Assembly: GCA_035533755.1 (NCBI GenBank)
Contig: DATLTC010000100.1
Coordinates: 62,001 to 126,000, forward strand
Origin: Gemmatimonadaceae bacterium
Lineage (GTDB): Bacteria > Gemmatimonadota > Gemmatimonadetes > Gemmatimonadales > Gemmatimonadaceae
Direction: 5' to 3'
DNA: 64,000 nt
In this document: in pieces, positions 23,561-28,201 of the stretch
Position numbering within the stretch: the stretch's first letter is position 1
Layout: each line of letters opens with the position of its first letter
Position numbers and translations under genes: made by a program
The notes under the pieces: generated by a model
The model's input: the letters and a program-made list of their open reading frames with translations, nothing else
What the model was told of the DNA's origin: nothing
Database searches by the model: none

Positions 23561-24046
23561 TCACGGCGCCGAATGCAGGTCGCGCACGGCGACGCCAAGC
23601 ACGACGGCAGCGGACACCATGGCGATGCCGAGCAGCACCACGCTCAGCGCGTGCAACTGGCCGAACGCGATGCGCAGCGGGTCGGTGACGGCGAGCGCAT
23701 CGACGGGACCGTGGATGCGAACGCGCACGCGCGCGATCCACGAATCGACGACGAGCTGGGCGATCATGCACGACGCGCCGCCGAGGGCGGCGGCGAGGAT
23801 GCGCGGCTTGAGCCGCGACCGCGCGTCGGCGCGCACGCCGAGCAGCACGACCGCGGCGAACAGCGCCATGCCCGACCAGAACACCACGGGGAGGACACGG
23901 CCCACGAGGTCGCCCGCCAGCGTGCGGGTGGGGAGCGCCGCGAACGCGGCCGGCGCCACCGCGGCCGCGAACAGCACCGTGGCCCCCAGCCAGAGGGAGG
24001 TCAACACCACCTGCCAGAGCCCGGCGCCACGGCGCGTGAGGGTCAT
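23561..24046 (-). CDS. Four-helix membrane protein, DUF4149-like
   Basis: Resembles the DUF4149/TMEM205-like family, whose function is not established. 161 residues with about four membrane segments: near 10-35 (VVLTSLWLGATVLFAAAVAP), 50-70 (VVFWSGMALFAAVVLLGV), 82-100, and 130-155 (ALSVVLLGIAMVSAAVVLG). Start ATG at 24046 overlaps the upstream hydrolase stop (ATGA), so the two are translationally coupled. In other bacteria such proteins also lie beside small-molecule enzymes. No catalytic motif is visible. Confidence 0.7.
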   Translation of the reverse strand: MTLTRRGAGLWQVVLTSLWLGATVLFAAAVAPAAFAALPTRTLAGDLVGRVLPVVFWSGMALFAAVVLLGVRADARSRLKPRILAAALGGASCMIAQLVVDSWIARVRVRIHGPVDALAVTDPLRIAFGQLHALSVVLLGIAMVSAAVVLGVAVRDLHSAP

Positions 24047-24684
24047 CGGCGCACCGGCATCGCCGTCCCGTTGAGGAACGGATTGGTCTCGAGCTCTTCG
24101 GCGATGGTGGTGGCCGGCCCATGGCCGGGATGCACGATGGTTCCGGCCGGCAGCGCGCTCACGCGGGCGAGCGATGCTTCCATGTCGGGCGCGCTGCTGA
24201 ACGGCAGGTCGGTGCGCCCCACGGACCCGCGGAACAGCAGGTCGCCGCCGAGGATGACGCCGTGTCCGTGGAAGATCACGTGGCCGGGCGCATGGCCCGG
24301 CGTGTGCAACACCTCGAACCGGAGCGCCCCCACCGTCATCACCGCGCCGTCGGCCAACTCGCGGTCGGGGGGATCGGGCTGTTCGAACGGGATCCCGTAC
24401 AGCACCGCGATCTCGGCGGCCCGATCGTAGAGCGGACGGTCGAGCGGATGCAGGTACACCGGCACCGGATGCGCCCGGCGCACGCCGTTGATGGCCCCCA
24501 CGTGGTCGAGGTGGGCGTGCGTGAGCCAGATCGCATCGAGCCGGGCGCCCGAGCGGGCGATCAACTCGAGCAGCCGGAGCGGTTCGTCGCCGGGGTCGAT
24601 GAGGACGGCGCGCCCGGCCTCCTCGTCCACCACGAGGTAGCTGTTCTCCTGGAACGGGCCGACCGTCTCGGCACTGATCTTCAT
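24043..24684 (-). CDS. Metallo-beta-lactamase-fold hydrolase (glyoxalase II-like)
   Basis: Binuclear metal hydrolase, cytoplasmic, no signal. The motif THAHLDHVG gives His56, His58, Asp60 and His61. HTPGHAPGHVIF, GDLLFRGSVGR and VHPGHGPAT complete the metal ligands. At 213 residues it matches the small glyoxalase II-like group (YcbL-type), probably acting on thioesters such as acyl-glutathione/bacillithiol analogues. The start MKISAETVGPFQENSYLVVD at 24684 is typical of that group. Gap of 16 bases to trxB. The exact substrate is unknown. Confidence 0.88.
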   Translation of the reverse strand: MKISAETVGPFQENSYLVVDEEAGRAVLIDPGDEPLRLLELIARSGARLDAIWLTHAHLDHVGAINGVRRAHPVPVYLHPLDRPLYDRAAEIAVLYGIPFEQPDPPDRELADGAVMTVGALRFEVLHTPGHAPGHVIFHGHGVILGGDLLFRGSVGRTDLPFSSAPDMEASLARVSALPAGTIVHPGHGPATTIAEELETNPFLNGTAMPVRR

Positions 24685-24700: not shown

Positions 24701-25669
24701 TCACGCGGCGCCGACTGGCTTGGCCACGTCGGCGCGCGCCTTGAGGTACTTCTCGGCCGCGATGGCAGCCGTGGTCGCGTCGCCCACCGCGGTCGTGACC
24801 TGGCGCGTGAGCTGCACGCGCACATCACCGGCCGCAAACAGTCCCGGAATGGACGTCTGCATATTCCAGTCGGTGCGCAGGTAGCCCATCTCGTCATGGT
24901 CCACGTGATCGGCGATGACGCCGGTGTTGGGCCGGAAGCCGACGAAGATGAAGAGCCCGGTGACCGCGAGGTCCCGGCGCTCGCCGGTGATCAGGTCGCG
25001 CAGCGCGAGGTGATGGAGCAACCCCTGGTCGTCGCCCACTGCTCGCTCGACCACGGTGTTCCAGATGAATTCGATTTTCGGGTTCTCGAACGCGCGCTCC
25101 TGGAGGAGCTTGGAGGCGCGCAGTTCGGCGCGGCGATGCACCAGATACACCTTCTCGGCGTAACGGGTGAGATAATCGGCCTCCTCCACCGCCGCATCGC
25201 CGCCACCGACCACGGCGATGGTGTGCCCGCGGAAGAAGGCGCCGTCGCACACCGCGCAATACGACACGCCCTTGCCGGCGTATTCCAGTTCGCCGGGGAC
25301 GCCGAGTCGCACCGGCGTTCCGCCGGCCGTGACGATGACGGTGGGCGAGACGTAGACGTCGCCGCCCTCGGTGGTGGTGTCGAACAGGCCGTCCTCACGC
25401 TTCTTGATGGACGTGACGACGACACCGGTCTGGATATCGGCGCCGAACTTGGTGGCGTGATCGGCGAATTTCTGCGCGAGCTCGTGCCCGAGGATGTGCT
25501 CGAAACCCGGATAGTCCTCGATCATTTCCGTGTTGAGCAACTCTCCGCCCGGCGCGCCGCGCTCGAGCACCACCGCTTTCAGCATGCCGCGGCCGGCGTA
25601 CATTCCGGCGCACATGCCCGCGGGGCCGGCGCCGATGATCACGACCTCATACTCGTGGGTCTGTGCCAC
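24701..25669 (-). CDS. trxB: Thioredoxin-disulfide reductase
   Basis: FAD/NADPH enzyme that reduces thioredoxin. The N-terminal FAD motif GAGPAGMCAGMYAGR lies near 13-27, redox CAVC at Cys138/Cys141, NADPH motif GGGDAAVEEADYLTR, and C-terminal GLFAAGDVR. 322 residues. The start is GTG at 25669 with GAGGG 7-8 bases upstream. It leads the run trxB-hydrolase-DUF4149-aspartase-rrf2. Its FAD and NADPH motifs are intact. Confidence 0.95.
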   Translation of the reverse strand: MAQTHEYEVVIIGAGPAGMCAGMYAGRGMLKAVVLERGAPGGELLNTEMIEDYPGFEHILGHELAQKFADHATKFGADIQTGVVVTSIKKREDGLFDTTTEGGDVYVSPTVIVTAGGTPVRLGVPGELEYAGKGVSYCAVCDGAFFRGHTIAVVGGGDAAVEEADYLTRYAEKVYLVHRRAELRASKLLQERAFENPKIEFIWNTVVERAVGDDQGLLHHLALRDLITGERRDLAVTGLFIFVGFRPNTGVIADHVDHDEMGYLRTDWNMQTSIPGLFAAGDVRVQLTRQVTTAVGDATTAAIAAEKYLKARADVAKPVGAA

Positions 25670-25784: not shown

Positions 25785-26588
25785 TCAGCCGTTCGCCGCA
25801 TCCGGCGTCGGGGCGATCACCACGCGGCTGAGCGCGCCGTGGCAATGCGAGACCGTGCCCACGAGCGCATCCACCGGGCGGTTCCCCGCCCCGGCGTCGC
25901 GCACGGCCCGGTCGGCCGCGAGCACGTCCCGCACGTCGATCATCCCGACGCCGTACGCGCGGTGCGTGCACCGGAACAGGAACGGTCCGAGCACGGGACG
26001 GCCGGCCGCGCGCTCCGCGTCGGCGTAGTCGCGGATGGCCGGCGCCAGACTCCAGTCGCGCGGTCCCCGGGTGTGGGGACACACGGCCGGCTCGATGCAG
26101 TTGATCGGACAGGTCCAGGTGGCGAAGCTCACGTAGTGCGTGCCATCGGGCGCCGCGCGCTCCCACGGCACGGCCGGCGGACCATGGAGCGCCGCCACGC
26201 GCGCGGGACGCGCGGGCCATCGGAGGCGCGCCGCGTCCACCAGCCAGTCGCGCAGCAGGTGCGGCATCAGCGGCGACGGCACGATCGCATCGTCCTGCGA
26301 CTCGCCGGCATCGCCGGCCGCGCCCAGGTGCCGGGCAAGGAAGTCCCGCCACTCCGCCACCGTCACCCGCACGAGCGGATCGCCGGGCGCGAGATCGCGC
26401 GCCACGGCGCAGTCGGCATCGCGGTCCACCACCACCACCTCGCGGCAAAACACCGCGCCCGCGTCCACGGCGCGACGCAGTTGGCGCACGTAGTAGCCGC
26501 CGTAGCAGCCGCCGCCGACAACGACGATCGTGCCGAAGCGCTGCGGCGGCGCGAACCGCGGATTAGTGGCGGACACGCCGGCCGCCAT
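25785..26588 (-). CDS. Uncharacterised protein: Rossmann N-terminus plus Cys cluster
   Basis: No named family is recognised with confidence. It resembles hypothetical proteins, seen in other phyla, that combine a nucleotide-binding start with a CPxxCxEPxxC motif. The N-terminus has IVVVGGGCYGGYYVRQL at 21-37, a Rossmann-like glycine-rich turn followed by VVVVDRD. Residues 103-116 (VPSPLMPHLLRDWL) and 152-159 (YVSFATWT) lead into Cys160, Cys164 and Cys170. Further on are Cys207-x-His209 and His248-Cys249-His250, so a metal or Fe-S site is plausible. 267 residues, no membrane segment. The ATG at 26588 lies 26 bases inside the SDR gene end; a GTG at 26576 is an alternative start. Confidence 0.75.
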   Translation of the reverse strand: MAAGVSATNPRFAPPQRFGTIVVVGGGCYGGYYVRQLRRAVDAGAVFCREVVVVDRDADCAVARDLAPGDPLVRVTVAEWRDFLARHLGAAGDAGESQDDAIVPSPLMPHLLRDWLVDAARLRWPARPARVAALHGPPAVPWERAAPDGTHYVSFATWTCPINCIEPAVCPHTRGPRDWSLAPAIRDYADAERAAGRPVLGPFLFRCTHRAYGVGMIDVRDVLAADRAVRDAGAGNRPVDALVGTVSHCHGALSRVVIAPTPDAANG

Positions 26589-27300
26589 CGACGACGATCG
26601 TCTCGCCGGTGACGAAGTCCGCCTGCAACAGGTAGAGCACGGCCTGGACCACGTCGTCCGGCGTGCCATGCCGCTGGAGGGGCGTGGTGGCCCGCAGCGC
26701 CTCGCCCTCGGGCGCCGTCCACCCTTCGGGCAGGAGCACCGTTCCGGGCGCGACCGCGTTGACGCGCACCGCGGGGGCCATGACGCGGGCCAGCGACCGG
26801 GTCATGTGCACAACGGCGCCCTTGCTCAGGCCGTGCGGGATATAGTCGGGCCACGTCTCGAAAGCCGCGAGATCGGCGATGTTCACGATCGCGCCGCCGC
26901 CCTGGGCGCCCGCGAGATGCGGCGCCGCCGCCTGGCACAGGAAGAACGGCGCGCGCAGGTTGAGCGCGAAGATCCGCTCCCACTGCGCCACGGAGATGGC
27001 GCCGAACGGCGTGCGCTCCATGACGGCAGCGGAGTTCACGAGCACATCGAGCCCGCCCAGCGCGGCCACGGCCTGCGACACGAGCGCCGGCGCGGCGTCG
27101 GGATCGCCGAGGTCGGCGCGCAGCGCATGGGCGGTGCCGCCCGCCGCTTCGATCAGCCGGACGGTCTCGTCGGCCCCGTCCGCGGATCCGTGATAGTGCG
27201 CGGCCACGTGCATGCCGCGCGCGCCGAGGGCCACGGCGATCGCCTGCCCCACCCGCCGACCGGCGCCGGTGACGAGCACCGTCCGTCCGTGCAGCTCCAT
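26563..27300 (-). CDS. Short-chain dehydrogenase, pteridine-reductase-like, catalytic Tyr replaced by His
   Basis: Classical SDR fold of 245 residues. TGAGRRVG at 11-18 has the Arg-rich turn of FolM/PTR1-type pteridine reductases; NSAAVMERTPFG near 89-100 and the N-terminal strand MELHGRTVLVTG are typical. The active site YxxxK is altered. The codon four before Lys160 is CAC, giving His156 where Tyr is expected (context DYIPHGLSKG), and the usual Ser is also absent (NIADLAAF). Ordinary reductase activity is therefore doubtful. The start at 27300 is taken because further upstream is the PHP gene's shadow. It lies 25 bases after the PHP gene. Confidence 0.85.
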   Translation of the reverse strand: MELHGRTVLVTGAGRRVGQAIAVALGARGMHVAAHYHGSADGADETVRLIEAAGGTAHALRADLGDPDAAPALVSQAVAALGGLDVLVNSAAVMERTPFGAISVAQWERIFALNLRAPFFLCQAAAPHLAGAQGGGAIVNIADLAAFETWPDYIPHGLSKGAVVHMTRSLARVMAPAVRVNAVAPGTVLLPEGWTAPEGEALRATTPLQRHGTPDDVVQAVLYLLQADFVTGETIVVDGGRRVRH

Positions 27301-27325: not shown

Positions 27326-28201
27326 CTACAATCCGCTCGGCACGGCCAACTGCGCCACCCGCGCTTCCTGCAGGGCCAGCCATTCCTCCGGCACCCGCAT
27401 CGACCCGAGGGTCCGCGCGCCGTCGCTGGCGCCGTGCCAGTCGGACCCGCCACTGGGGATTAACCCCAGAAAGTCGGCCAGCGTTCGCAGGCGCGCGATG
27501 TCTTCGGCGCTGTGGCTGGGGTGGAGCACCTCGACGCCGTCCAGTCCCTGGGCAGCCAGCGTCTCGAGGCGTTCACGCGTGCCGGCGTGGCCGGGATGGG
27601 CGACGACGGCCACGCCGCCGGCGCGATGGATCATCGCGATCGCGTCCACCATCGACAGCCGGTCCTTGGCCACGAATGCGGGACGCCCATTGCCGAGGTA
27701 TCGATCGAAGGCGTCGCGGACGTCGGTGGCCCACCCTTCCTGCACCAGGGCGCGGGCCACGTGCGGGCGCCCGATCGCGCCGCCGGCCGCCTGGTCGAGC
27801 ACCGCCGGTACCCCGATCCGCACGCCCAGCTCGTTGAGCCGCGCCACCATGCGCTCGGCGCGCACGCGCCGCATATCGCGCAGCGCGGAGAGCCCGTCTT
27901 CGATTTCGGAGAGCCGCGAGAGGTGCAGCCCGAGCAGGTGCGTTTCGGTATCGCCCTCGACGGCGCTCAGCTCCACGCCGGGGATCAGGCGCACGCCGAG
28001 GGCCTCGGCGGCCTCGGCGGCCTCGGCGATTCCGGCGACGGTGTCATGATCGGTGAGGGCGATGGCGGCGAGGCCGGCCGCGCGCGCGGCGGCCATCACG
28101 TCGGCGGGAGGACGGGAGCCGTCCGACGCGGTGGAGTGCGAATGCAGATCGATGAACGCCGGACGATGCGGCGCGTCCGCGGCGCCGATCGGCGCCGTCA
28201 C
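27326..28201 (-). CDS. PHP-domain phosphoesterase (YciV/TrpH type)
   Basis: Metal-dependent phosphoesterase of the polymerase-and-histidinol-phosphatase fold. DLHSHSTASDG near 18-28 supplies the HxH start; LTDHDTVAG near 49-57, PGVELSAVEG, the IGRPHVARALV segment, VVAHPGH, and the C-terminal GSDWHG complete the metal ligands. 291 residues matches RNase AM / 3',5'-nucleoside bisphosphate phosphatases, which trim RNA 5' ends or act on pAp, but specificity here is not shown. ATG at 28201 overlaps the 88-residue gene's stop (ATGA). Confidence 0.88.
   Translation of the reverse strand: MTAPIGAADAPHRPAFIDLHSHSTASDGSRPPADVMAAARAAGLAAIALTDHDTVAGIAEAAEAAEALGVRLIPGVELSAVEGDTETHLLGLHLSRLSEIEDGLSALRDMRRVRAERMVARLNELGVRIGVPAVLDQAAGGAIGRPHVARALVQEGWATDVRDAFDRYLGNGRPAFVAKDRLSMVDAIAMIHRAGGVAVVAHPGHAGTRERLETLAAQGLDGVEVLHPSHSAEDIARLRTLADFLGLIPSGGSDWHGASDGARTLGSMRVPEEWLALQEARVAQLAVPSGL

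Follow-up and report, generated by a model that had tools for sequence, protein, structure and literature searches.

A short-chain dehydrogenase/reductase (SDR) resembling the pteridine reductases PTR1 and FolM, in which histidine takes the place of the catalytic tyrosine, is probably a dihydrofolate reductase (DHFR) that stands in for FolA, an enzyme lacking in most sampled members of the phylum Gemmatimonadota. The gene of this candidate dihydrofolate reductase (P0002, positions 26563–27300, minus strand) lies in the window, i.e. the whole stretch of 64,000 nucleotides that was analysed, next to that of P0001 (25785–26588, minus strand), an orphan protein of 267 residues composed of a Rossmann half and a Cys/His domain. 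As far as can be told from its sequence, P0001 is a member of an unnamed and undescribed protein family. The evidence in hand for the SDR as a DHFR consists of its motif, its conservation and its inverse distribution with FolA. Taken alone, this role appears slightly favoured; combined with a reading of P0001 as a two-domain Rossmann/metal-site protein, we see the balance as even. The broader proposition, that most Gemmatimonadota reduce dihydrofolate via a Tyr→His SDR of the PTR1/FolM type and that P0001 is a separate, NAD- or FAD-linked protein with a new Fe-S or metal site, is put forward more tentatively.

Analysis of the SDR active site reveals that the classical Ser-Tyr-Lys triad reads Asp-His-Lys. 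The description of this SDR as Tyr-less in the sequence-only reading was correct, the Y of YxxxK being H156 (26833–26835, minus strand). D143, at the position of the PTR1 catalytic Asp and of the classical Ser (26872–26874, minus strand), is found in 116 of 122 loci, H156 likewise in 116 with Tyr in the other six, and the catalytic K160 (26821–26823, minus strand) in all 122; one of 123 loci was dropped from this count for its length, and near-copies were kept. The six exceptions correspond to a different, S-Y-K type of SDR (34–37% identical) that is present instead of the P0002 type. Among 19 further loci without an adjoining P0001 gene, picked from the SDR profile matches, His is found in 18 and Tyr in L185 only. 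Residues T11, G12, R16, G18, N114, D143, H156 and K160 are invariant in 31 diverse copies of the SDR, from which we infer that the active site is maintained and not decayed. R16 and G18 lie in the stretch TGAGRRVG (residues 11–18; 27247–27270, minus strand), which follows the pattern TGX3RXG described in a passage of PMC1971073 as the PTR1/FolM signature.

P0002 has the SDR fold according to its matches with PF13561 (E 2.6e-49) and with the FolM structure 5tgd (E 5.8e-37). Of the FolM/PTR1 features it possesses the TGX3RXG motif and the Asp and Lys of the triad, the triad Tyr being replaced by His. Its best model is the NCBIfam pteridine reductase entry NF006598, which is matched by all 31 rows of the SDR alignment but reached by P0002 with 231 bits only, below the curated cut-off of 288. 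Since the Tyr is missing and the score lies under this cut-off, the SDR is not classed here as a pteridine reductase. The identity between P0002 and Escherichia coli FolM, a D-Y-K enzyme annotated as dihydromonapterin reductase, amounts to 30% (E 4e-25). When P0002 was compared with the PDB using phmmer, FolM 5tgd came out as the second match; the family profile built from the 31 rows places a FabG-type reductase first (201.6 bits), FolM 5tgd eighth (183.3 bits) and PTR1 lower. Because the profile ranks FabG-type enzymes above FolM and PTR1, the sequence does not pin down the substrate class. In our reading, the SDR would work like FolM/PTR1.

We propose that this PTR1/FolM-type SDR most likely reduces dihydrofolate to tetrahydrofolate using the retained N114, D143 and K160, with His presumably standing in for Tyr. 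In PTR1, as described in part of PMC1618733, the proton is passed by Tyr in the initial reduction, from the oxidised to the dihydro form, whereas the second, DHFR-like step (dihydro to tetrahydro form) combines the NADPH hydride with a proton from water. As the second step takes its proton from water, loss of the Tyr would be expected to spare the DHFR step of the SDR. It is unlikely, in our estimation, that the SDR instead acts on another substrate (dihydromonapterin, biopterin or a ketone) or is a pseudo-enzyme, its inverse relation with FolA having other reasons. That explanation draws on the lack of the catalytic Tyr, on the annotation of E. coli FolM, on the first rank of FabG-type reductases in the profile search and on the prediction, stated in PMC1971073, of a chiefly pteridine-reducing role for FolM-like proteins. 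The Asn, Asp, His and Lys are, however, all invariant in the 31 rows, unlike what decay would produce, and a passage of PMC7973133 states that E. coli FabG mutants devoid of the Tyr still act on the natural ACP substrate but not on a CoA analogue.

The distribution of the SDR across 298 genomes of the phylum was compared with that of DHFR, ThyA and ThyX, the cut-offs being at least 100 bits for DHFR, at least 200 bits for ThyA (29/32), E ≤ 1e-60 for the SDR and E ≤ 0.001 for ThyX; the SDR tally reflects the profile score, the His being unchecked genome by genome. SDR and DHFR co-occur in five genomes, while 248 have the SDR only, 22 DHFR only and 23 neither (p 2e-16, uncorrected for ancestry). 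DHFR_1 was thus scored in 27 genomes, and the SDR is absent from 22 of them, compared with 45 of all 298. With Pfam's own cut-off, which counts 33 DHFR genomes, the corresponding numbers are 11/242/22/23 (p 3e-13); the six genomes between this cut-off and 100 bits all have the SDR. When all 39 DHFR matches at E 0.001 are counted, p is 2e-13. That nearly half of the SDR absences (22/45) fall in the 27 DHFR genomes argues against an SDR acting on another substrate.

Family f2 holds 21 of the 27 DHFR genomes, and the anticorrelation could reflect the history of just one or two clades. This we regard as improbable, since the anticorrelation persists inside f2 (2 with both, 32 with the SDR only, 19 with DHFR only, 12 with neither; p 2e-6, uncorrected for ancestry) and DHFR genomes without the SDR are also present in f1 (G218), f7 (G203) and f11 (G009, 84% complete). 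At individual loci, the operon lacks the SDR gene in the DHFR-positive genomes G036 and G120 (loci L037 and L041), and L104 agrees in contig number and place with G218, where the operon reads PHP – P0001 – TrxB without SDR and where DHFR and ThyA are present with no match to ThyX or the SDR.

In the home genome, ThyX, DHPS and FolK were matched, and a search for DHFR (PF00186) and ThyA gave no match. ThyA accompanies DHFR in 26 of 27 genomes. The SDR and ThyX are found together in 239 genomes, the SDR without ThyX in 14, ThyX without the SDR in 21 and neither in 24. Twenty-one of the 23 genomes with neither SDR nor DHFR have ThyX, ten of them belonging to f2; some members must consequently rely on something else, and these 21 genomes count in favour of another substrate for the SDR. 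FolK is absent from 16 of 69 relatives, and all 13 of these that are among the 298 genomes keep the SDR, which weakens an argument based on de novo synthesis. Retention of the SDR in FolK-less genomes fits folate salvage but would also agree with a different pterin substrate; salvage, according to a passage of PMC1971073, needs a DHFR as well. The preferred reading of the SDR remains that of a dihydrofolate reductase.

The sequence-only reading had joined the SDR and P0001 into one undescribed redox module. The two genes lie in an operon whose order, E2 (2-oxoacid dehydrogenase E2) – small gene – PHP – SDR – P0001 – TrxB – MBL – fumarase, is largely kept across f1 and f2, the names being mostly assigned by eye. 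The gene named by eye as PHP-domain protein (27326–28201, minus strand) lies upstream of the SDR and is found in 80 of 83 testable loci; thioredoxin reductase TrxB (24701–25669, minus strand; CAVCDG, named by eye) is the next operon gene after P0001 and lies downstream in 85 of 91; the metallo-beta-lactamase-fold (MBL) hydrolase, also named by eye (24043–24684, minus strand), follows downstream in 70 of 78. All these counts concern non-redundant loci with enough flanking sequence. The TrxB slot is occupied by two rather different types, either about 38–43% or 63–86% identical to the TrxB of the window. An SDR stands directly upstream of the P0001 homologue in 87 of 93 such loci, a number that includes the different S-Y-K SDR because any SDR at 1e-6 was accepted; one of the six misses, L127, comes from the choice of start codon, its SDR being located at −695. 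The overlap of 26 bases with the SDR had been read correctly (the SDR ends at 26563, and the P0001 ORF spans 25785–26588), and is one value within a spread of −32 to +38 between SDR stop and P0001-homologue start in 115 of 123 loci, with starts chosen by alignment.

A single dedicated redox module would account for genes that in most loci overlap or lie almost end to end, and for the SDR found immediately upstream in nearly all of them; we nevertheless consider it highly improbable. Over the 298 genomes both genes occur in 89, P0001 only in 20, the SDR only in 164 and neither in 25 (Fisher p 0.24), and within f1 and f2 together the numbers are 87/20/48/13 (p 0.69). Each gene is, moreover, cleanly missing in places where the other is present. 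Of the 48 genomes of f1 and f2 that have the SDR but lack P0001, the 13 whose loci were inspected all keep SDR and TrxB with P0001 cleanly absent and 40–230 nt between the two; a tblastn search for P0001 remnants over these loci gave ten matches with E ≥ 0.31, none in the SDR–TrxB gap. Conversely, P0001 and PHP are present without SDR in L037, L041 and L104, and the two f4 loci (L031 and L032) have a P0001 homologue without adjoining SDR. Some of the 87 upstream SDRs, finally, are of the different S-Y-K type. The SDR and P0001 thus occur independently and are not an obligate unit. The data lend no support to a module, and a FolM/PTR1-like reductase is a better explanation of the SDR than a module partner. 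The pair would rather represent two distinct redox genes in one conserved operon, translationally close and without functional dependence on each other.

The features of P0001 pointed out by the sequence-only reading, a protein of 267 residues with a GGGCYG turn, C160-x3-C164-x5-C170, C207-x-H209 and H248-C249-H250, are all present as described. That reading had named variable cysteines or a clear match to a known family as grounds for abandoning its proposal, and neither was found: C28, C160, C164, C170 and C249 are conserved in 95 of 95 homologues, and Pfam, NCBIfam and the PDB gave no convincing match. In particular, P0001 matched 0 Pfam families, nothing better than E 0.13 was obtained with NCBIfam, and the best sequence match in the PDB has E 0.032. 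Weak Pfam matches were obtained among 21 relatives, the commonest being AveC_like (seven relatives, best E 0.0023), followed by DAO (five of 21, best E 4e-4) and NAD_binding_8 (four of 21).

Conservation was assessed on 95 homologues less than 90% identical and 225–300 residues long, retained from 131 matching loci after exclusion by hand of L032, an in-frame fusion. H110 and H209 are invariant together with the five cysteines, whereas H250 (94/95), C60 (93/95) and C207 (91/95) are nearly so and H248 (71/95) is not conserved. The residues of the loop C160-P-x2-C164-x-E-P-x2-C170 (26079–26111, minus strand), of C207-x-H209 (25962–25970, minus strand) and of H248-C249-H250 (25839–25847, minus strand) include the candidate metal or Fe-S ligands, and the Cys/His conservation, judged on this alignment, is more than chance. 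The turn GGGCYG (residues 25–30, including C28; 26499–26516, minus strand) is invariant in the 95 rows, as are G25, G27 and G30 within it and the acidic D55.

P0001 is single copy in the home genome. Its homologues were recovered in 109 of the 298 genomes: family f1 contributes 61 (of 103 genomes), f2 contributes 46 (of 65) and f4 two, the order containing f4 having a homologue in two of 154 genomes. The homologues recovered in these genomes and among the best 80 of 166 relatives listed in a contig search come from the window's phylum or from contigs with Gemmatimonad titles. The exceptions are L104, titled Candidatus Kuenenia, L085, titled Acidobacteria, and L089, titled only 'bacterium'. All three keep the synteny, and L085 and L104 nest within the Gemmatimonad part of the P0001 gene tree. 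No relative was found in the viral contigs and plasmids searched. In this tree, for which the root is a midpoint only, 15 f2 rows fall on one side of a branch with 100/100 support, and L031 of f4 has a very long branch; from this pattern, descent with losses appears to fit better than frequent transfer. The f4 homologues have other neighbours, each one following a TrxB-like flavoprotein gene without CxxC that was read by eye as ferredoxin-NADP reductase (FNR).

Structure prediction, which the sequence-only reading had recommended together with a fold search, gave a confident two-part model. The AlphaFold model of P0001, computed from 95 sequences, has a pLDDT of 91.9 and a pTM of 0.89. It comprises an N-terminal Rossmann-type half (residues 1–124; 26217–26588, minus strand) with GGGCYG, D55 and PSPLMPH, and a Cys/His C-terminal domain (residues 125–267; 25788–26216, minus strand). 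The latter, modelled alone, reaches a pLDDT of 90.9 and a pTM of 0.85 and is probably a separate domain, given that it is confidently predicted on its own. Apart from the first ten residues, the least confident block is formed by residues 161–170 (mean pLDDT 65), as might be expected of a loop that requires a ligand. A Foldseek search with the whole protein against PDB and BFVD gave no match at E ≤ 0.001, and the C-terminal domain searched against the PDB yielded a best E of 1.1. Structural matches obtained with VIA cover just 66–101 residues, which corresponds to part of a Rossmann fold, and mix methyltransferases with dehydrogenases; the best Z of 7.9 (87 residues, 3.0 Å) is within the range of common arrangements. 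The best VIA Z of the C-terminal domain is 4.3 (99 residues, 4.5 Å), with several tied thiolase-fold rows that we do not read as a sign of kinship. The predicted C-terminal domain has no convincing match to a known fold, which does not by itself prove a new one.

A GxGxxG motif after strand 1 together with an acid ending strand 2 is the usual pattern of NAD- or FAD-binding Rossmann domains. P0001 displays both, the strands being taken from the AlphaFold model, and the designation as an uncharacterised dinucleotide-type Rossmann protein holds, in line with the predicted Rossmann half and the lack of a known family. The N-terminal half would thus probably bind NAD(H) or FAD through GxGxxG and the acidic D55. 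In the C-terminal domain, C160, C164, C170, C207, H209, C249 and H250 may constitute a metal site, either [4Fe-4S] or Zn, and P0001 might exchange electrons with a flavoprotein of the TrxB/FNR type. This reading of P0001 is based on residue invariance, predicted fold and the recurrent place beside genes of TrxB-family flavoproteins. The flavoprotein neighbour is the sole hint at an electron partner, a weak one because TrxB persists where P0001 is absent, and the linkage may be plain synteny. Radical-SAM Fe-S enzymes carry a CX3CX2C motif; the spacing C160-x3-C164-x5-C170 of P0001 does not fit it. The classification given here to P0001 goes no further than an uncharacterised family of Rossmann type with a putative metal site.

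It is possible, if somewhat doubtful, that P0001 has no redox function at all but acts as a regulator, with a Zn of structural or sensory role in the Cys/His set and with SAM or a nucleotide bound by the Rossmann half. Such a role would agree with the absence of a match to any known redox family, with the mixture of methyltransferases and dehydrogenases in the VIA rows, with the suitability of Cys and His as Zn ligands and with a gene that is patchy and dispensable within its operon. On the other hand, GGGCYG with an acidic residue closing strand 2 is what NAD- or FAD-binding proteins typically show, the invariant cysteines exceed the needs of one Zn site, and the weak matches of relatives include DAO and NAD_binding_8, even though AveC_like is the commonest. 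As regards a link with folate, P0001 is not associated overall with DHFR (p 1.0) or ThyX (p 0.86) over the 298 genomes. Inside f2 it is inverse to DHFR (seven genomes with both, 39 with P0001 alone, 14 with DHFR alone, five with neither; p 1e-5), which is read as an effect of lineage, since P0001 is present in each of the three f1 genomes with DHFR.

According to a passage of PMC1971073, many bacteria are without a recognisable DHFR, and most of these use ThyX and still need the activity, the gene for which was yet to be identified at the time of that report. Were our proposal true, the SDR would be the DHFR so far missing from the ThyX-dependent bacteria of this phylum, an enzyme dedicated to the Tyr-independent step, and the folate-reducing enzyme of these bacteria would differ from FolA. 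The widespread Tyr→His FolM-like SDR with its inverse relation to FolA makes the missing-DHFR question directly testable in one phylum. With P0001 comes a further undescribed family, whose Cys/His set is strictly conserved and whose C-terminal domain resembles no known fold convincingly. Searches of the open literature with short lists of terms returned no paper recognisable by title or abstract as describing P0001 or the SDR.

Comparing these proteins with known systems, the SDR would share with FolA (PF00186) the reaction from dihydrofolate to tetrahydrofolate, whereas the FolA fold is unrelated to that of SDRs. The likeness to FolM and PTR1 comprises the SDR fold, TGX3RXG, the Asp and Lys of the triad and the 30% identity to E. 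coli FolM; the differences are the His in place of the catalytic Tyr and the score below the NCBIfam cut-off. Moreover, the SDR is inverse to FolA in this phylum; E. coli, by contrast, carries folM alongside folA according to PMC1971073. As for P0001, part of its Rossmann half resembles two-domain dehydrogenases, namely glucose-6-phosphate dehydrogenase and saccharopine dehydrogenase-like homospermidine synthase, with VIA Z values of 5.4–6.3 over 89–101 residues (rmsd 3.4–4.0) that are in the range of common arrangements. These enzymes differ from P0001 in that they have no sequence match to it and leave its C-terminal Cys/His domain unmatched. Similar proteins were suggested by the sequence-only reading to occur in other phyla; uncharacterised Rossmann proteins with a CPxxC..P..CP motif may be present there, and their motif pattern would be like that of P0001.

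Among the 298 profiled genomes of the phylum, a ThyX match (E ≤0.001) was absent in 26 of the 29 containing ThyA (≥200 bits), and 21 ThyX genomes matched neither the D/H/K SDR, the candidate dihydrofolate reductase with His in place of the catalytic Tyr (E ≤1e-60), nor DHFR_1 (≥100 bits). As a side observation, thyA adjoins folA as a cassette in several genomes, G013 and G219 among them. In thirteen genomes of family f1 (G004, G019, G026, G028, G030, G039, G080, G101, G139, G144, G202, G236, and G281), FolK yielded no match and DHPS none above the cut-off, which suggests that part of this family consists of folate auxotrophs.

Family f2 contains a second SDR with an S-Y-K signature, which lies in the operon of the D/H/K SDR, with or without that gene. 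It lies upstream of the D/H/K SDR at L042 and L046 and is also found at L036, L038, L043, L048, L123, and L129, the likeness among copies being judged by eye. At L038, L043, and L048 it is kept and the D/H/K SDR is gone; DHFR was not found for the species concerned.

The TrxB slot of the operon (24701–25669 in the window, minus strand) is occupied by two different TrxB types, varying by species across loci L001–L130 and L167–L179, one about 38–43% and the other 63–86% identical to the TrxB of the window. All TrxB adjoining P0001, the Rossmann and Cys/His protein, at the f1 and f2 loci contain CAxCDG, and the two types apparently swap for each other in situ. At L032 (6877–8079), a response-regulator receiver domain, recognized by eye, continues in frame from the P0001 homologue, reflecting either a fusion or a missing stop. 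Gemmatimonad synteny and gene-tree position were observed for L104 and L085, whose contigs, titled Candidatus Kuenenia and Acidobacteria, respectively, are probably mislabelled bins.
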